The translations under genes were made by a program, and so were the position numbers. The notes beneath the pieces were generated by a model, which was not told the origin of the DNA, did no database searches, and worked only from the letters and a program-made list of their open reading frames with translations. Below, in pieces: positions 5,036 through 11,571 of a DNA stretch of 64,000 nucleotides. Location: contig NZ_CP127294.1 in NCBI RefSeq assembly GCF_030285625.1, positions 3,792,001 through 3,856,000 of the forward strand, given 5' to 3'. This DNA comes from Amycolatopsis sp. 2-15. GTDB taxonomy: Bacteria > Actinomycetota > Actinomycetes > Mycobacteriales > Pseudonocardiaceae. The stretch's first letter is position 1; each line of letters opens with the position of its first letter.

Positions 5036-5635
5036 GTGGGACGCACACGCACCTTCGACGTCGACGAAGCCCTCGGCGTCGCCCTGGACACCTTCTGGCA
5101 GCGCGGCTACGACGCCACGTCGATCCAGGCGCTGTGCCAGGCCATGGACATCCAGCCCGGCAGCGTCTACGCCGCGTTCGGAAACAAACACGCCCTGTTC
5201 GTCGCCGCACTCCGCTCCTACGCGGCAACCGTGTCCGCCGAGGCCGTCGAGCGGCTCAACGTCGCCCCAAGCGGGATGCAAGGCCTGCGCGACTACTTCG
5301 CCCACCTCGTCGACGCGATGGTCGACGGCCGCCGCCGCTGGGGCTGCCTCGTCACAAACTCGCTCGTCGAACTCACCGACCGGGACCCGGCGCTGGCCGC
5401 GATGTTCGAACAACACCTCGCCAACCTCCGCACCAGCTTCGCCGGCGCCCTCACCCGCGCCCGCGCCGCCGGCGAGCTCCGCCCGGGCGCCGGACCCGAG
5501 TCCGCGCCCCTGCTCGTGGCCGTCGTGCAGGGCCTGAACGTGCTCGCCAAGACCCGCCCGGGCCGCGCCACCCTGCAGTCCATCGCGGACAGCGCGCTCG
5601 CCGGCCTGGCCGCGGAGGCGCCCACCTCGGTCTGA
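5036..5635 (+). CDS. TetR family transcriptional regulator
   Basis: A 199-residue regulator. The N-terminal helix-turn-helix is typical (ALDTFWQRGYDATSIQAL then MDIQPGSVYAAFGNK, residues about 16-55); the rest is the all-helical ligand-binding and dimer domain. It is divergent from the ketopantoate-reductase/racemase/LOG operon across 104 bases holding an inverted repeat, so it most likely represses that operon and itself. GTG start at 5036 has no strong ribosome-binding site, so a leaderless transcript is possible. Confidence 0.88.
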   Translation: MGRTRTFDVDEALGVALDTFWQRGYDATSIQALCQAMDIQPGSVYAAFGNKHALFVAALRSYAATVSAEAVERLNVAPSGMQGLRDYFAHLVDAMVDGRRRWGCLVTNSLVELTDRDPALAAMFEQHLANLRTSFAGALTRARAAGELRPGAGPESAPLLVAVVQGLNVLAKTRPGRATLQSIADSALAGLAAEAPTSV

Positions 5636-5684
5636 GGCGCTCCGCCTTCCCCTCGTGACGGCGCCCACTCGAAGGGGGCAAACC

Positions 5685-5711
5685 TGTCACATCCGGCATC
5701 GCTGTCTTGTC
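5685..5711 (+). promoter_or_regulatory. ECF-type promoter TGTCACA-N13-TCTTGTC (copy 1)
   Basis: TGTCACA at 5685-5691, 13 bases, then TCTTGTC at 5705-5711, 34 bases before the ATG of the NDH-2-like gene. The same arrangement with the same spacing occurs before the SDR gene at 7159 and, on the minus strand, before the cupin pair. The -35 half matches the published ECF41 consensus (TGTCACA). Confidence 0.72.
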
Positions 5712-5744
5712 TCTCTTGTGCAGGGCGAGAGAACGAGGAGCGAA

Positions 5745-7064
5745 ATGCGCAGGATCCTGGTGGTCGGCGGCGGGTATGCGGGTTTCTACGCGGCCTGGGG
5801 ACTCGAGAAGCGGTTGCGGCCTTCGGAGGCGGAGCTCACTGTCGTGGACCCGCGGCCGTACATGACCTACCAGCCGTTCCTGCCCGAGGTCACGGCCGGT
5901 TCGATCGAGGCGCGCCACGCGGCGGTGTCGCTGCGGCGGCACCTCAAGCGCACGCGGATCGTGGCCGGCGCGGTGACGGAGATCGACCACGCGAACCGCC
6001 ATGTGGTCGTGCGGCCGGCCGAGGGCCCGGAGTTCGAGCTCGAGTACGACGAGATCGTGGTGACGGCCGGCGCCGTCACCCGCAAGTTCCCGATCCCCGG
6101 CATCACCGAGGAAGCGATCGGGATGAAGCACATGGAAGAGGCCGTCGCGATCCGCGACCGGCTGCTGACGTCGTTCGACCGCGCGTCGGCGCTCGAGCCG
6201 GGGCCGGCGCGGCGGAAGCTGCTCACGGTGACGTTCGTCGGCGGCGGTTTCTCGGGCGTCGAGGGCTTCGCGGAGCTGCTGTCGCTGGCGACGGCGCTGC
6301 TGAAGCCGTACCCGGAGATCAGCCGCGACGAGCTGAGCTTCCACCTCGTGGAGGCGCAGGGCCGGATCCTGCCCGAGGTCACCGACAAGCCGGGGCGCTG
6401 GGTGGTCCGCTCGCTCGAAGAGCGCGGCGCCCACGTGCACCTCAACACGCAGCTGCGATCGGCCGTCGACGGGCACGTGGTGCTCTCGACGGGCGAGGAG
6501 TTCGATTCCGCGCTCATCGTGTGGACGGCGGGCAACGCCGCCAACCCCGTGGTGCACAACCACACCGACCTGCCGATCGACGAGCGCGGCTTGCTGCTCG
6601 TGCGCGCCGACCTGCGGGTGGGCACCGAGACGGACCCGGTGCCGGGTGCGTGGGGCGCGGGTGACGACGCCGCGGTGCCGGACCTCGCGTCGCCCGTTCC
6701 GGGGGCGCGGACGGTGCCGAACGCACAACACGCGGTTCGCCAGGGCAAGCTGCTTGCTCGAAACCTCACAGCGCACGTTCGCGGTCGCGCACCGAAGCCG
6801 TACGTCCACCACGGGCTGGGTTCGGTCGCGACGCTGGGCATCGGCAAGGGCATCTTCCAGTACCGCCGGATCGTGATCACGGGCCTGCTCGCGTGGCTGA
6901 TGCACCGCGGGTACCACGTGCTGGCCGTGCCGAGCTGGGAACGCAAGGTGCGCGTGCTCGCGATCTGGCTCACGGCGGCGTTCTTCGGCCGCGACATCGT
7001 GTCGCTCGCTTCGGTCGAGCACCCGCGCGACGCGTTCGTCTCCGGAGGCGACCCGATCAGGTGA
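5745..7064 (+). CDS. NAD(P)/FAD-dependent oxidoreductase (NDH-2-like)
   Basis: A 439-residue pyridine nucleotide-disulfide-type flavoprotein. The FAD-binding start is ILVVGGGYAGFYAAWGLEK (residues 4-22), the second dinucleotide site is TFVGGGFSGVEGFAELL, and a GAGDDAAVPDL motif near the C-terminus contacts FAD. The last ~60 residues hold hydrophobic stretches (VITGLLAWLMHRGYH, LAIWLTAAFFG) like the membrane-anchoring tail of type II NADH dehydrogenases, so it probably feeds electrons from NADH to quinone. The ATG at 5745 has GAGGAG upstream; in-frame codons before it lack homology. Its own ECF-like promoter lies at 5685. It is one of the oxidoreductase class often linked to ECF41 sigma factors. 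Confidence 0.85.
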   Translation: MRRILVVGGGYAGFYAAWGLEKRLRPSEAELTVVDPRPYMTYQPFLPEVTAGSIEARHAAVSLRRHLKRTRIVAGAVTEIDHANRHVVVRPAEGPEFELEYDEIVVTAGAVTRKFPIPGITEEAIGMKHMEEAVAIRDRLLTSFDRASALEPGPARRKLLTVTFVGGGFSGVEGFAELLSLATALLKPYPEISRDELSFHLVEAQGRILPEVTDKPGRWVVRSLEERGAHVHLNTQLRSAVDGHVVLSTGEEFDSALIVWTAGNAANPVVHNHTDLPIDERGLLLVRADLRVGTETDPVPGAWGAGDDAAVPDLASPVPGARTVPNAQHAVRQGKLLARNLTAHVRGRAPKPYVHHGLGSVATLGIGKGIFQYRRIVITGLLAWLMHRGYHVLAVPSWERKVRVLAIWLTAAFFGRDIVSLASVEHPRDAFVSGGDPIR

Positions 7065-7077
7065 TTCGCGGCGGCGC

Positions 7078-7104
7078 TGTCACAGATCCGCGGTCCGTCT
7101 TGTC
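7078..7104 (+). promoter_or_regulatory. ECF-type promoter TGTCACA-N13-TCTTGTC (copy 2)
   Basis: TGTCACA at 7078-7084 and TCTTGTC at 7098-7104, separated by exactly 13 bases, 55 bases before the SDR gene. Identical half-sites and spacing to the elements at 5685 and 10599. It would drive the SDR and the flavoprotein behind it. Confidence 0.72.
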
Positions 7105-7158
7105 CTGGCTGGTGCGAAGTCCCCGGGCCTGCCGGGGACACTCAGCGAAAGGCGCATC

Positions 7159-7914
7159 ATGAGGATTGTCGTCATCGGCGGTACCGGCCTGATCGGCTCG
7201 CGGGTCGTGAGCCTGCTGGAGGAGCACGGCCACGAGGCGGTGCCGGCGTCGCCGACCTCCGGGGTCAACACCGTGACCGGCGAAGGCGTCAAGGAAGTGC
7301 TGCAGGGCGCCGACGTGGTGGTGGACGTGTCGAACTCGCCGTCGTTCGCCGACGACGACGTGATGGCGTTCTTCCGCGCCGCCACCACGAACCTGACCGG
7401 CGCCGCCAAGGACGCCGGCGTAGGCCACTACGTCGCGTTGTCGGTGATCGGCAGCGACCGCCTGCTCGAGTCGGGCTATCTGCGGGCGAAGGTCGCCCAG
7501 GAAGAGCTGATCAAGGACTCCGGCCTGCCCTACTCCATCGTGCGGGCCACGCAGTTCTTCGAGTTCGTCGGCGCGATCGCCGACGGCGGCACCGAGGGCA
7601 ACGTCGTCAAGCTCCCCGACGCGGGCATCCAGCCGATCGCGGCCTCCGAGGTTTCCGGCGCGGTCGCGAAGGTTGCCGCCGGCGCGCCGCTGGGCGGTAT
7701 GACCGAGATCGGCGGCCCCGAGATCTTCACGATGGAGAACTGGGTGCGCGAGGCCCTGGCCTTCCGCAACGACCCGCGTGAGGTCACCGTCGACCCCGAG
7801 GCCCGTTACTTCGGCGAGAAGCCGGGCCCGAGGGGCCTGCTGCCCGACGAGGGGGCCCAGCTCGGGCAGATCAAGTTCGCGGACTGGCTCCCGGCCAACC
7901 CGCCCAGGAAGTGA
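7159..7914 (+). CDS. NmrA-like SDR, NAD(P)H-binding protein
   Basis: A 251-residue atypical short-chain dehydrogenase. It has the NmrA-type Rossmann start VVIGGTGLIGSRVV (residues 4-17) and the HYVALSVIGSDRLLESGYLRAK segment that replaces the usual YxxxK. Such proteins bind NAD(P) and act either as reductases/epimerases or as redox sensors. It has its own ECF-like promoter, and a flavoprotein gene follows after 60 bases, probably in the same transcript. Epimerase-like proteins of this kind are one of the three typical neighbours of ECF41 sigma genes. Confidence 0.85.
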   Translation: MRIVVIGGTGLIGSRVVSLLEEHGHEAVPASPTSGVNTVTGEGVKEVLQGADVVVDVSNSPSFADDDVMAFFRAATTNLTGAAKDAGVGHYVALSVIGSDRLLESGYLRAKVAQEELIKDSGLPYSIVRATQFFEFVGAIADGGTEGNVVKLPDAGIQPIAASEVSGAVAKVAAGAPLGGMTEIGGPEIFTMENWVREALAFRNDPREVTVDPEARYFGEKPGPRGLLPDEGAQLGQIKFADWLPANPPRK

Positions 7915-7974
7915 TTCCTTGCGCGGGTGGTCCCGTTCCGGTGCCACCCGCGCATCCCGTCAGGAGGGAATTCG

Positions 7975-9699
7975 ATGACAGAACAGCAGGTCGCGACGTC
8001 GGTACTGGTGATCGGCACGGGCGGGTCCGGGTTGCGCGCCGCGATCGAGCTGGCCGAGCGGGGCGTCGACGTGCTCGTGGTCGGCAAGCGGTCCAAAGGC
8101 GACGCCCACACCACGTTGGCCGCCGGCGGCATCAACGCGGCGCTGGCGACGATGGACCCGCAGGACAGCTGGCAGCAGCACGCCGCCGACACCATCAAGG
8201 AGAGCTATCTGCTGGCGCACCCCGACACGGTGCGGGTCGTCACGCAGAACGCCGCACGCGGCATCGAGGACCTCGAACGCTGGGGCATGCCCTTCGCCCG
8301 CGAGGCCGACGGCCGCATCTCCCAGCGGTTCTTCGGTGCGCACACCTACCGGCGCACCGCGTTCGCGGGTGACTACACCGGACTGGAGATCCAGCGCACG
8401 CTCGTGAACCGCGCGGCGCAGCTCGACGTGCGGATGCTCGAGAACGTCTACATCACGAGAATCCTGGTGCAGGACAACGTGGTCTTCGGCGCGTACGGCT
8501 TCGACCTCGACAACGGCACCCGCTACGTGATCCACGCCGACTCGGTGATCCTGGCCGCCGGCGGGCACACCCGCATCTGGCGCCGCACGTCTTCGCGGCG
8601 CGACGAGAACACGGGCGACTCGTTCCGGCTCGCCGTGCTGGCCGGCGGCCGCATCCGGGACCCGGAGCTGGTGCAGTTCCACCCGTCCGGGTTGCTGGAG
8701 CCGGAAAACGCGGCGGGCACGCTCGTGTCGGAAGCCGCTCGCGGTGAGGGCGGCCAGCTGCGCAACGCGCTGGGCGAGCGGTTCATGGAGCGCTACGACC
8801 CGGAGCGGATGGAACTGTCCACACGCGACCGGGTGGCTTTGGCCGCGTACACCGAAATCAAGGCGGGCCGCGGCACGCCGAATGGTGGCGTGTGGCTCGA
8901 CGTTTCGCACCTGCCGCGTGAGACGATCATGCAGCGGCTGCCGCGCGTCTACCAGACGTTGCTGGAACTGCAGATGCTGGACATCACGAAGAGCCCGATC
9001 GAGATCGCGCCCACCGCGCACTACTCGATGGGCGGTGTCTGGGTGCGGTCGTCCGACCACGGTACGGGCGTCGAAGGCCTGTACGCGATCGGCGAGGCCG
9101 CGAGCGGCCTGCACGGCGCCAACCGGCTCGGCGGCAACTCGCTGATCGAGCTGCTGGTGTACGGCCGGATCGTCGGCGAGGCGGCGGCGGAGTACTCGGC
9201 TTCTCTTTCCGCGCAACGGCGTTCCGCCGGCGCGCTCGCGGAGGCTCGCGGTGAAGTCGACGAGCTGCTGGCGGCCGAGGGCCCGGAGAACGTGCGGGCC
9301 CTGCAGCGTTCCTTGCGCAACACGATGACCGAGCACGCGGGTGTCGTCCGGGACGAGAAGGGTCTGCTCGCGGGACTGTCCGAACTGGACGCGCTCGAGG
9401 AGCGGATGAAGAACGTCGGGGTCCACCCGGATCTGGCCGGGTTCCAGGACCTCGCGCACGCGTTCGACCTGAAGTCCTCGGCGTTGGCCTGCCGGGCGAC
9501 GCTGGAGGCGGCGGTGGAACGGCGCGAGACGCGGGGCTGCCACAACCGCTCGGACTACCCGGAGCTGGACGAGTCGATGCGGGTGAACCTCGTGTGGTCC
9601 GGGCGTGGGCGGATCGAACGGGAAGCGTTGCCACCGGTGCCTGCGGAGATCGCCGCGTTGATGCGGGAGGTTTCCTCGGAAGGGAAACTGGTCGAGTGA
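7975..9699 (+). CDS. FAD-binding flavoprotein, fumarate reductase/L-aspartate oxidase type
   Basis: A 574-residue flavoprotein. FAD-binding elements are VLVIGTGGSGLRAAIELAE (residues 10-28), TTLAAGGINAAL, and the catalytic-domain signature HPTG-like QFHPSGL plus HYSMGGVWV and GEAASGLHGANRLGGNSL. The helical C-terminal domain carries RSDYPELD. These are the hallmarks of succinate dehydrogenase/fumarate reductase flavoprotein subunits and L-aspartate oxidase (NadB). No iron-sulfur or membrane subunit and no nadA/nadC lies nearby, so a stand-alone oxidase or reductase is more likely. The ATG at 7975 has AGGAGGG upstream. A strong terminator follows at once. Confidence 0.85.
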   Translation: MTEQQVATSVLVIGTGGSGLRAAIELAERGVDVLVVGKRSKGDAHTTLAAGGINAALATMDPQDSWQQHAADTIKESYLLAHPDTVRVVTQNAARGIEDLERWGMPFAREADGRISQRFFGAHTYRRTAFAGDYTGLEIQRTLVNRAAQLDVRMLENVYITRILVQDNVVFGAYGFDLDNGTRYVIHADSVILAAGGHTRIWRRTSSRRDENTGDSFRLAVLAGGRIRDPELVQFHPSGLLEPENAAGTLVSEAARGEGGQLRNALGERFMERYDPERMELSTRDRVALAAYTEIKAGRGTPNGGVWLDVSHLPRETIMQRLPRVYQTLLELQMLDITKSPIEIAPTAHYSMGGVWVRSSDHGTGVEGLYAIGEAASGLHGANRLGGNSLIELLVYGRIVGEAAAEYSASLSAQRRSAGALAEARGEVDELLAAEGPENVRALQRSLRNTMTEHAGVVRDEKGLLAGLSELDALEERMKNVGVHPDLAGFQDLAHAFDLKSSALACRATLEAAVERRETRGCHNRSDYPELDESMRVNLVWSGRGRIEREALPPVPAEIAALMREVSSEGKLVE

Positions 9700-9700
9700 C

Positions 9701-9735
9701 AAAGGGGGCTCTCCCTGGTTGGGAGAGCCCCCTTT
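9701..9735. terminator. bidirectional Rho-independent terminator
   Basis: A perfect 15-bp stem (9701-9715 with 9721-9735, loop TGGTT) has A-rich and T-rich ends, so it works both ways. It ends the flavoprotein transcript and the convergent cupin transcript, whose stop codon is only three bases away. Confidence 0.93.
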
Positions 9736-9737
9736 TC

Positions 9738-10067
9738 TCATCGGGGTTGCACGACGTTCGTGAACAGGATCGCCGCGTCGGTCTCGGCTTCGATGCGGTG
9801 CCGGTGCTCGGGGAGCACGAGGAAGTCGCCGGGTGCCGCGCGTTGGCTTTCGGCGCCGGTGACCAGGCGGATGTGCCCGTGCAGGACGAGCACGGTGGTC
9901 TCGCCACCGTGGTGTTCGTGTTCGTGCAGGTGTTCGCCTTCGCACAGTGCCATCACAGTCTGGCGCAGGGCATGCTCGTGTCCACCGTGGACGGTCACCG
10001 CGCTGCGCCCGGAGGACGCCTGCGCCGCGAGCCCGGCCTGGGTCTCGGCGAGGGTGATCAGGTTCAT
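9738..10067 (-). CDS. small cupin-domain protein
   Basis: A 109-residue single-domain cupin. Motif 1 is present as LHEHEHHGGETTVLVLHG, giving several His plus a Glu for metal binding; motif 2 is PGDFLVLPEHRHRIEA. The function of stand-alone cupins of this size (dioxygenase, isomerase or sensor) cannot be told. The ATG at 10067 has AAGGAG upstream. It is the second gene of a two-cupin operon (50-base gap) driven by an ECF-like promoter. Confidence 0.85.
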   Translation of the reverse strand: MNLITLAETQAGLAAQASSGRSAVTVHGGHEHALRQTVMALCEGEHLHEHEHHGGETTVLVLHGHIRLVTGAESQRAAPGDFLVLPEHRHRIEAETDAAILFTNVVQPR

Positions 10068-10117
10068 GATGCTCCTTGCGGAGGGGGCCGGCCTTCCGGG
10101 CCGGTCCCCGTTCCGGG

Positions 10118-10552
10118 TCACGGCCGGGGCGCTCGCAGGTGCTCGCGCTGCTCGAGTTCCTCGTCGCTCACCGGGATGAGCATCGGCTGTCCCGGCGCGC
10201 AGAACATCGTGACGACGAACTGGGACTCGGCGTCGTCGAGGTTGTTGCCGTCCTGGTAGTGGATCACGTCGAACCCGGGCTCCCAGAACGCTTCCCCGGC
10301 CTTCACGACGCGCTCCGGGTCGCCTTCGAGCTCGAAGATGATCTCGCCCTTGAGCACATAGCCGAACGCCGGCCCGGAATGCCGGTGCGGCGGCGCCCCG
10401 TCACTCCCCGGCGGCAACGTGACCAGGATTGTCATCGGCACGGCCCCCTCGGGCGCCGCAGGCGCTCCCTCCGCGGTCGCCACCAGCTCGATCTTCGGCG
10501 GCGGCGCGCTCGACTTCGGGTTCCGCAGGTGGTGCGAATGTTCCACGCTCAT
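10118..10552 (-). CDS. cupin-domain protein
   Basis: A 144-residue cupin. Motif 1 is PPHRHSGPAFGYVLKGE (two His and a later Glu position), motif 2 is AGEAFWEPGFDVIHYQDG. The N-terminal 20 residues are His-rich and precede the barrel. It resembles small quercetinase-like or anti-sigma ChrR-type cupins in length, but no clear assignment can be made. First gene of the cupin pair; its promoter carries the TGTCACA-N13-TCTTGTC element. Divergent from the IclR gene. Confidence 0.85.
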   Translation of the reverse strand: MSVEHSHHLRNPKSSAPPPKIELVATAEGAPAAPEGAVPMTILVTLPPGSDGAPPHRHSGPAFGYVLKGEIIFELEGDPERVVKAGEAFWEPGFDVIHYQDGNNLDDAESQFVVTMFCAPGQPMLIPVSDEELEQREHLRAPRP

Positions 10553-10598
10553 GAGCTTCCTTCACGGACCTGGTGTCGGTTGTCCTTTCGTGAGCTGA

Positions 10599-10625
10599 GA
10601 CAAGACGTGGCTGCTATCTGTGACA
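10599..10625 (-). promoter_or_regulatory. ECF-type promoter TGTCACA-N13-TCTTGTC (copy 3)
   Basis: Read on the minus strand, TGTCACA covers 10625-10619 and TCTTGTC 10605-10599, with the same 13-base spacer, 46 bases before the cupin start. Third copy of the element shared with the genes at 5745 and 7159. Confidence 0.72.
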
Positions 10626-10791: not shown

Positions 10792-11571
10792 ATGGATGAA
10801 ACGCGCGGTGGCGTGGCGTCGGTGGTGAAGGCGTGCAAGGTGCTACGCGCCTTCTCGCCCACAGTGGGTGTCCTGTCCGTCCGGCAGGTCTCGGCCCGCG
10901 CGGACATCCCGCGCAGCACCGCCCACGAGCTGTGCCGCACCCTCGTCGCCGAGGGAATGCTGGAGGATTCGGGCAACGGCTACCAGCTCGGCCCGCTGCT
11001 GCTGGAGCTCGCCGGCCAGATCATCGAACGCACCGGCCTCGTCCGCGCGACCGAGGGCATCCTCGACCGCCTGGTCCGCGCGCCCGAACAGGAGGCGCAC
11101 CTGGGCCAGCTCACGCAGGGCTGGGTCGTCTACCTCGACGGCAACGCCAGCACCTGCAAGGTCCCGATGCACAACCGCGTCGGCCAGCGCGCGCCCGCGC
11201 ACCTCACCGGGTGCGGCAAGGCGGCGCTGTCGTGGCTGCCGTTCGACAAGGTCGTGGCCCACGTCGAGAAGTGCTGCGCGGAGAGCTCGACGCCGCCGCC
11301 CGACCTCGACGAGCTCGAAGCCGAGCTCGTCCGCGCGCGCCACGACGGGTTCCTGGTGTCGAAGTCGTTCCAGAAGGACCGGATGTCCGTCGCGGCGGCG
11401 ATCTTCGACGCGTCGGGCCACGCGGTCGGCGGCGTCTCGCTGGCCGGGCCCGCGACGATGTTCACCACGGCCGTCGTGGCGTCGGTCCGCGCGTCGGTGA
11501 CCAACGCGGCCGGCCTCATCAGCGCGCGGCTCATCAACGAGCCGGCGCGCTGGGCGAGTACTCCGCGCTGA
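10792..11571 (+). CDS. IclR family transcriptional regulator
   Basis: A 259-residue regulator with an N-terminal winged helix (VVKACKVLRAFS, then VSARADIPRSTAHELCRTLV, residues about 11-60) and the C-terminal GAF-like effector domain typical of IclR (LTGCGKAALSW; SVAAAIFDASGHAVGGVSLAGP). It is divergent from the cupin operon across 239 bases containing an inverted repeat, and it stands before an unrelated LacI gene. Effectors of this family are small aromatic or organic acids; the target here is uncertain. Start ATG at 10792; no strong ribosome-binding site. Confidence 0.9.
   Translation: MDETRGGVASVVKACKVLRAFSPTVGVLSVRQVSARADIPRSTAHELCRTLVAEGMLEDSGNGYQLGPLLLELAGQIIERTGLVRATEGILDRLVRAPEQEAHLGQLTQGWVVYLDGNASTCKVPMHNRVGQRAPAHLTGCGKAALSWLPFDKVVAHVEKCCAESSTPPPDLDELEAELVRARHDGFLVSKSFQKDRMSVAAAIFDASGHAVGGVSLAGPATMFTTAVVASVRASVTNAAGLISARLINEPARWASTPR

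Follow-up and report, generated by a model that had tools for sequence, protein, structure and literature searches.

Four recurrent promoters in Amycolatopsis sp. 2-15 and the distant ECF41-type sigma factor that may read them

Background

Within about 5 kb of the chromosome of Amycolatopsis sp. 2-15, the same pair of short boxes, TGTCACA-N13-TCTTGTC, precedes three groups of genes for oxidoreductases and cupins: which factor reads these boxes, and how many genes does it control? The boxes lie in a stretch of 64,000 nucleotides, hereafter the window, that covers bases 3792001-3856000; the genome (G000) is a single contig of 10.05 Mb. The original prediction, made from the letters of the window, was that the boxes are promoters of a redox regulon of about 5 kb under one sigma factor of the extracytoplasmic function (ECF) group ECF41, encoded outside the window.

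The ECF41 promoter TGTCACA-n16-CGTC was identified in Bacillus licheniformis and Rhodobacter sphaeroides, the −10 box of B. licheniformis being TGTT (PMC3426412; here and below, papers are cited for the extracts of them that were available). About a third of the ECF41 genes have no neighbour of the carboxymuconolactone decarboxylase, oxidoreductase or epimerase (COE) classes, so that adjacency to a COE gene is no strict requirement, and orphans are common in actinobacteria (PMC3426412). In these sigma factors a SnoaL-like C-terminal domain inhibits by touching a motif of the linker; the proposed route of activation is a change of conformation, likely brought about by small molecules (PMC8999054). 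Some members have been linked to oxidative stress (PMC8103513).

The reading that we propose, with a probability of about 0.9 on the evidence of sequence comparison, is that four promoters, three in the window and one elsewhere, would be read by RNA polymerase carrying the ECF41-group sigma factor L006 (Table 1), whose residue Asn60 fits the T or G found in their −10 boxes; its SnoaL-like domain would gate it, and six genes would be expressed together.

The promoters and their genes

As originally claimed, the exact pattern occurs three times in the window; each of 100 shuffles of the window has none. With up to three mismatches the window holds 4 matches for 2.37 expected, which is no excess, so that only the exact form is informative. 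The genome-wide scan that had been suggested as a check speaks for the prediction: the 10.05 Mb contain four exact matches and no match of the reversed pattern, and the four sites end 33, 54, 46 and 46 nt before the ATG of, respectively, the NDH-2-like, short-chain dehydrogenase/reductase (SDR), first cupin and ferritin-like genes. The right-hand box common to the sites can be refined to YGTCTTGTC after N11 or, in ECF41 terms, the promoter is TGTCACA-N16-TGTC. The general pattern TGTCACA-N11..19-CGTC was tried as a definition of the regulon and rejected: it has 23 sites in the genome for 17 in the control, and alone it cannot define the regulon.

The fourth unit lies 4.07 Mb from the window cluster. 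The idea of an ECF41-type regulon stands, and its predicted extent of about 5 kb proves too small. Pfam matches agree with the gene classes first described, namely an oxidoreductase, an NmrA/epimerase-like SDR, a fumarate-reductase-like flavoprotein and cupins, the second cupin staying below the cut-off. The SDR is of the "epimerase" class of ECF41 neighbour genes, and with the flavoprotein it presumably forms one operon. Among solved structures, the NDH-2-like protein is closest in sequence to a non-electrogenic NADH:ubiquinone reductase (1.8e-33); the first cupin has no match in the PDB at E 0.001. The longest open reading frame (ORF) of the NDH-2-like gene, 5655-7064, starts with a GTG that lies upstream of the promoter; the likely start is the ATG at 5745, downstream of it.

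Table 1. Sites, genes and loci discussed in the text, with positions counted in the window, in the genome or in the named locus
Feature	Counted in	Position	Strand	Remarks
TetR gene	window	5036-5635		flanks the cluster
Promoter, NDH-2-like gene	window	5685-5711	+	exact; −35 TGTCACA 5685-5691; extended box TGTCTTGTC 5703-5711; −10 TGTC 5708-5711
NDH-2-like pyridine nucleotide-disulphide oxidoreductase, 439 aa	window	5745-7064	+	ATG start; Pyr_redox_2 1.8e-36
Promoter, SDR-flavoprotein pair	window	7078-7104	+	exact; −35 7078-7084; box CGTCTTGTC 7096-7104; −10 TGTC 7101-7104
NmrA/NAD_binding_10-type SDR, 251 aa	window	7159-7914	+	NAD_binding_10 5.1e-12; NmrA 3.7e-07
FAD_binding_2/Succ_DH_flav_C flavoprotein, 574 aa	window	7975-9699	+	family matches; 60 nt after SDR
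Small cupin-like protein, 109 aa, second of the pair	window	9738-10067	-	Cupin_2 1.3e-05, below Pfam cut-off (25.3 vs 27.2 bits)
Cupin, 144 aa, first of the pair	window	10118-10552	-	Cupin_2 1.4e-12
Promoter, cupin pair	window	10625-10599	-	exact; −35 10625-10619; box CGTCTTGTC 10607-10599; −10 TGTC 10602-10599
IclR gene	window	10792-11571		flanks the cluster
Fourth promoter, ferritin-like gene	genome	7876264-7876238	-	exact; genome scan
Ferritin-like (PF12902) protein, 350 aa	genome	downstream of 7876264-7876238(-)		profile match
ECF41 sigma factor L006	genome	7930512-7931399	-	profile match; orthologue neighbourhood
Sister paralogue L007	genome	4823985-4824815
Paralogue L005	genome	4151731-4152561
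One-mismatch site (L253)	genome	7360853-7360879	+	GTGGCTTGTC box
Related sigma (G008 or G078)	L262	6862-7446		match ends at residue 195
Related sigma (G008 or G078)	L263	11669-11085	-	match ends at residue 195
SnoaL-like stretch	L270	9080-9415
SnoaL-like stretch	L272	11691-12023
SnoaL-like stretch	L264	11284-10946	-
SnoaL-like stretch	L180	11351-10941	-

A sigma factor outside the window

A scan of the genome with TIGR02957 gives 55 matches, two of them over the cut-off. None of the 55 lies in the window, which agrees with the prediction that the sigma factor is encoded elsewhere. The best 11 of the 55 (L005-L015) were followed; among them, L015 falls outside the ECF41 clade in the sigma tree. 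L006 scores 328.4 bits against a cut-off of 323.25, has Sigma70_r2 (5.8e-14) and Sigma70_r4_2 (6.8e-15) domains, and matches Mycobacterium tuberculosis SigJ (PDB 5xe7) over residues 3-250 with 3.7e-43. Its SnoaL_2 match (1e-04, 23.3 bits) is below Pfam's 27; the TIGR02957 score and the match with SigJ up to residue 250 indicate that it has the C-terminal SnoaL-like extension. The linker reads YVGPWLPEP and the end motif NPGKL, that is, NPDKL-like with D changed to G; WLPEP linkers and NPDKL-like motifs are those of ECF41 (PMC3426412, PMC7730460). The distance from the gene to the window sites is 4.13 Mb, and to the ferritin-like site 54 kb.

The link between L006 and the promoters comes from relatives. 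In a sample of 80 genomes of the genus, in each of which the sigma search scored 31 first-look candidates for L006 and L007, orthologues of L006 (at least 58% identity) occur in 34; below these, the best matches have 50%, with a 61% fragment in G067 as the one exception. Among 29 loci of relatives, fetched with 1.5-kb flanks, 25 have a homologue of the SDR, NDH-2-like, flavoprotein, cupin or ferritin-like gene in the flank of the sigma orthologue, and the same type of promoter precedes the SDR genes that adjoin the sigma gene. An ECF41 gene near other matches of the motif, which had been suggested as a thing to look for, is present in such loci. The four loci with no such homologue are L181, L182, L184 and L208; for two of them, L181 (G059, sigma 96% identical to L006) and L182 (G055, 82%), the clusters are megabases from the sigma gene. 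Loci L198 and L199 have the sigma gene inside or beside the cluster; they are sister to L006, L181 and L182 in one tree (91/90, not starred) and not in another.

The promoters themselves recur in relatives. The exact motif is present in 10 of the 80 genomes (16 sites, none for the control), before NDH-2-like genes (4), SDR genes (4), first cupins (2), ferritin-like genes (2) and animal-haem-peroxidase-like genes (PF03098; 2); the other two sites precede a 72-aa ORF and a FadD-like gene, named by reading. The FadD-like match, in G004, was set aside as chance: it has no YGTC extension, and no sigma orthologue was found in G004 among the candidates scored. The 72-aa ORF (L042, in G029) starts 47 nt after the motif; the same promoter precedes a peroxidase-like gene some 3 kb away. 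For the NDH-2-like orthologues, the motif is exact in G059, G055 and G070, and has the TGCCTTGTC variant in G066; the SDR promoter of G059 and G055 has C for T in the box; the cupin promoter is exact in G059 and has one −35 mismatch in G055; the ferritin-like promoter is exact in G059. Enzymes that use flavin, NAD(P), metal or haem make up the predicted targets, and the regulon may have a role in redox or oxidative chemistry.

Presence of the sigma gene and presence of the promoter go together. For this comparison the promoter was written TGTCACR-N12-GYCYKGTC, with the reversed pattern as control, and G008 was counted among genomes without the sigma gene, G078 among those in which it is broken. 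All 34 genomes with an intact sigma gene have the promoter (70 sites, control 20), as do all 4 with a broken one (9 sites, control 3) and 13 of the 42 with neither (14 sites; control 28, in 25 genomes). With broken genes counted as present, this is 38 of 38 versus 13 of 42 (Fisher p 9e-12, relatedness among genomes being ignored). All nine genomes that carry the strict YGTCTTGTC form have the sigma gene. The sole site of G060 and that of G079 do not adjoin the sigma gene, and up to seven matches, chance included, occur in one relative, G029. Two side observations concern incomplete matches. In G008 and G078 a related sigma lies near cupin or ferritin-like genes, its match stopping at residue 195; and L268 (G020) and L267 (G045) combine a broken sigma gene with a partial match of the neighbouring SDR, as if the unit decayed together.

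Beyond the genus, a scan of the contigs of named genomes matched at least 119 stretches, the motif having about 15.5 specified bases. Many of these matches, for example in gut bacteria, look like chance, and a locus was used only if it held homologous genes or a sigma gene. Among the matches listed, the strict motif lies at most 1.3 kb from a member of the L006 clade in Lentzea, Allokutzneria, Leifsonia, Glycomyces, Streptomyces, Actinophytocola and Actinoallomurus; it occurs in Kribbella (L072) with clustered flavoprotein, SDR, cupin and ferritin-like genes, and in an Acidobacteriaceae metagenome-assembled genome (L073) with clustered ferritin-like, peroxidase, SDR and cupin genes.

The first letter of the −10 box

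The consensus of the relatives' sites is TGTCAC(A/G)-N11-(mostly Y)G(T/C)C(mostly Y)(T/G)GTC. In 33 distinct sites of the clade, collected with a search form that fixed GTC and left free the first −10 base and the base before it, the first −10 base is T in 18, G in 15, and never C or A. The −35 box TGTCACA (TGTCACG in 6 of the 33) and the spacer of 16 ± 1 are those of ECF41, and the −10 box departs from the CGTC of the group. It had been suggested that TGTC marks a subgroup: this holds in the sense that the clade has T or G, never C, but the letter is not unique to it, since a second ECF41 clade and B. licheniformis, with TGTT, share it.

What in the sigma factor could correspond to this letter? 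Residue 60 of the aligned L006 fragment, in region 2.4, is Asn (Asn73 when counted from the possible ATG start of MEESGSATL); it is Asp in L008, L010 and L012. Near the paralogues of the same genome, the −10 boxes are CATC for L005, CGTC for L008, CGTT for L010, AGTC for L011, CGTC for L012 and GGTT, at spacer 15, for L013, with a GGTC 3 kb from L007. L005 has a divergent pair of TGTCACR-N16-CATC promoters (L005:2417(+) and 2416(-)); CATC, also read in several relatives, is a further ECF41 −10 type.

The correspondence was examined on 126 loci taken by similarity to L006 (genus), L012, L008 and L011, irrespective of promoter. The sigma gene could be placed in 123, and 72 of these have at least one candidate site of the form TGTCACR, spacer 15-17, NRTY, before an ORF start; there are 86 candidate sites, versus 5 for the reversed −35. 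At spacer 16 (75 sites), Asp60 goes with C in 18 of 18 cases (CGTC 17, CGTT 1), and Asn60 with T or G in 32 of 34 (TGTC 18, GGTC 13, GGTT 1; the two others are CGTC and CATC). Thr60 goes with GGTC (8) in the L006 clade, and with CGTC (6) and CATC (1) in an L005-like clade; Ser60 has CGTC 3 and CATC 1, Gly60 CATC 2, and Ala60 CATC 2. At other spacers we find Asp with CGTC (6) and GGTC (1), Thr with GGTC (2), Asn with GGTT (1), and Ser with CATC (1).

On a tree of 66 sigma factors, in which three labels were added manually and the mixed L309 was left out, the 47 Asp or Asn rows require four changes of residue and as many of −10 class. Independent Asp/Asn pairs agree with the rule in 4 of 4 cases (sign test p 0.125); when Asn is compared with all other residues, seven independent pairs are obtained, of which four agree, none opposes and three have no −10 difference. 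In the reverse direction, sigma factors of named genomes were picked only by a YGTCTTGTC site in their locus, at most 1.4 kb away: among the matches listed, 28 of 29 have Asn60, counts that are not independent since the rows are related, and the exception, a Thr sigma, does not belong to the ECF41 clade and shares its locus with an Asn sigma.

In sigma-H the position aligned with residue 60 is N92 (PDB chain numbering shifted by two). N92 makes a hydrogen bond to C on the template strand, in the G:C pair at −11 with which the GTT −10 box begins (PMC6411747). That base pair neighbours the base that covaries with residue 60: the covarying base precedes the GT of sigma-H, and an Asp/Asn switch for it was not found in the available part of PMC6411747. 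The rule would follow if Asp accepted from the amino group of cytosine and Asn donated to a keto oxygen, that of T or that of G. We lean towards the view that, in ECF41, the region-2.4 residue sets the first −10 letter (C for Asp, T or G for Asn), and that repeated Asp/Asn changes split specificity, which may have let some ten paralogues coexist and a multi-unit regulon with a distant sigma factor persist. The rule was not found in the literature searched, a weak negative since the search was narrow and did not cover Todor et al. 2020, whose large-scale ECF residue-base pairs (cited in PMC11588781) follow the same principle that few sigma residues set promoter letters.

Other readings of the sites

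Another ECF41-like sigma of the genome might read the promoters, alone or by cross-talk, the first candidate being L007. It is sister to the whole L006 clade and has Thr at residue 60; its neighbouring site, TGTCACG-N16-GGTC, stands 61 nt before an SDR-like gene, and −10 boxes that lack the C are found near two more paralogues, L011 (TGTTCAGTC) and L013. However, the sigma genes that adjoin the regulon genes in the fetched loci belong to the clade of L006 and not to L007 types; orthologues of L007 (at least 77%, next best 54%) occur in 4 of the 80 genomes, and in only three of the nine strict-motif genomes, six being without; and the paralogues L005, L008, L010 and L012 have other −10 boxes. 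We consider this unlikely. It is less likely still that a transcription factor uses the sites as operators: TetR and IclR genes do flank the cluster, and TGTC is present in both boxes, but the two boxes are not inverted repeats of each other, the ECF41 promoters of B. licheniformis and R. sphaeroides have this −35 and this 16-base spacer (PMC3426412), and the −10 base covaries with a residue of a sigma factor. That the promoters are relics, left by a sigma gene that once sat inside the cluster, moved, and no longer drives it, could be imagined from the present position of L006 between UvrA-like and lysozyme-like genes (named from translations by reading), yet is hardly credible, since the promoters are exact here, largely kept in G059 and G055 despite a distant sigma gene, and the fourth is exact in G059.

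Several points weigh against control by L006 or against the residue rule. No COE gene adjoins L006 in its own genome, nor does any regulon gene, so that the link of sigma and regulon rests on orthology, and there is no promoter site within 220 nt before its aligned start. Besides the relatedness left out of the Fisher test, the refined pattern has chance matches, as its reversed control matches 19 of the 34 intact-sigma genomes, and absences of the sigma gene are soft because only 31 candidates per genome were scored. Many orthologues have promoters with CGGTC instead of TTGTC, and a second ECF41 clade of at least 18 rows, which includes none of the paralogues of this genome, has the same TGTCACA-N11-YGTCTTGTC promoter. 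As for the rule, L345 is an Asp sigma with GGTC at spacer 17; with this case, and with Thr60 going with G in one clade and C in another, residue 60 is not the sole determinant.

The rows of the second clade, among the matches listed, are L075, L078, L079, L086, L096, L105, L106, L111, L122-L125, L127, L145, L150, L155, L161 and L171; in many of them roughly 1 kb separates the sigma gene from the promoter upstream of it.

Control by L006, assessed on orthologue neighbourhood, co-occurrence and phylogeny, is the supported reading: an ECF41-type regulon with its sigma gene outside the window. The sigma-4 domain of L006 would read TGTCACA at −35 and its sigma-2 domain the −10 box, where Asn60 would fit T or G over C at the first base. 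The fused SnoaL-like domain and the WLPEP linker motif would hold L006 inactive until a signal, probably a small molecule, and the NDH-2-like gene, the SDR and flavoprotein genes, the two cupin genes and the ferritin-like gene, six genes in four units, would then be expressed jointly. The L006 gene, apart from the cluster in this lineage, would still control it. Transcription from the four sites, the signal and the structure of the operons are predictions of this scheme.

Further sites and domains

With one mismatch, the refined pattern has 28 sites in the genome, four of them exact, versus 14 for the control. Among the 24 inexact sites, one is the CGTC promoter that follows the L008 sigma, another is some 3 kb away from the L007 sigma, and a third precedes a second cupin-like gene; the remaining ones are not distinguishable from chance. 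The third of these, in L253, is upstream of a gene similar to the first cupin (63%), 82 or 139 nt from its candidate starts, and is a possible fifth target. A looser site at 7871977(-) was dropped, no convincing gene being found downstream.

In several relatives a separate SnoaL-like stretch adjoins the sigma gene and matches only the ECF41 C-terminal extension, at about 35-40%; it is possibly a detached regulator domain (L270, L272, L264 and L180 in Table 1).

Comparison with known systems

The proposed system is a variant of the known ECF41 system. Like L006, Ecf41Bli and Ecf41Rsp have sigma-2 and sigma-4 domains with a C-terminal extension, a WLPEP linker, a TGTCACA −35 and a spacer of 16 ± 1, and they share oxidoreductase and NmrA/epimerase targets with it; cupins stand beside four ECF41 genes (PMC3426412). 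Each of the two was reported to control a single target gene or operon (PMC3426412), whereas here four exact promoters precede four units at two places of the genome, the sigma factor would act in trans, and the first −10 base is T or G, Ecf41Bli with its TGTT also having T.

The SnoaL-like extension was assigned to L006 above in part through its match with SigJ. SigJ has Asp at the position aligned with residue 60, and its promoter carries CGTC. It has been named as an ECF41 member (PMC8999054), and by analogy with that group L006 may itself be regulated by its C-terminal domain.

For Amycolatopsis, an orphan ECF41 sigma factor would gain a conserved multi-gene redox regulon, and the approach gives a route to finding others. 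If true, the Asp/Asn rule would allow orphan ECF41 sigma factors to be matched to their targets from sequence, and would help to explain how many similar sigma factors are insulated from one another in one cell.

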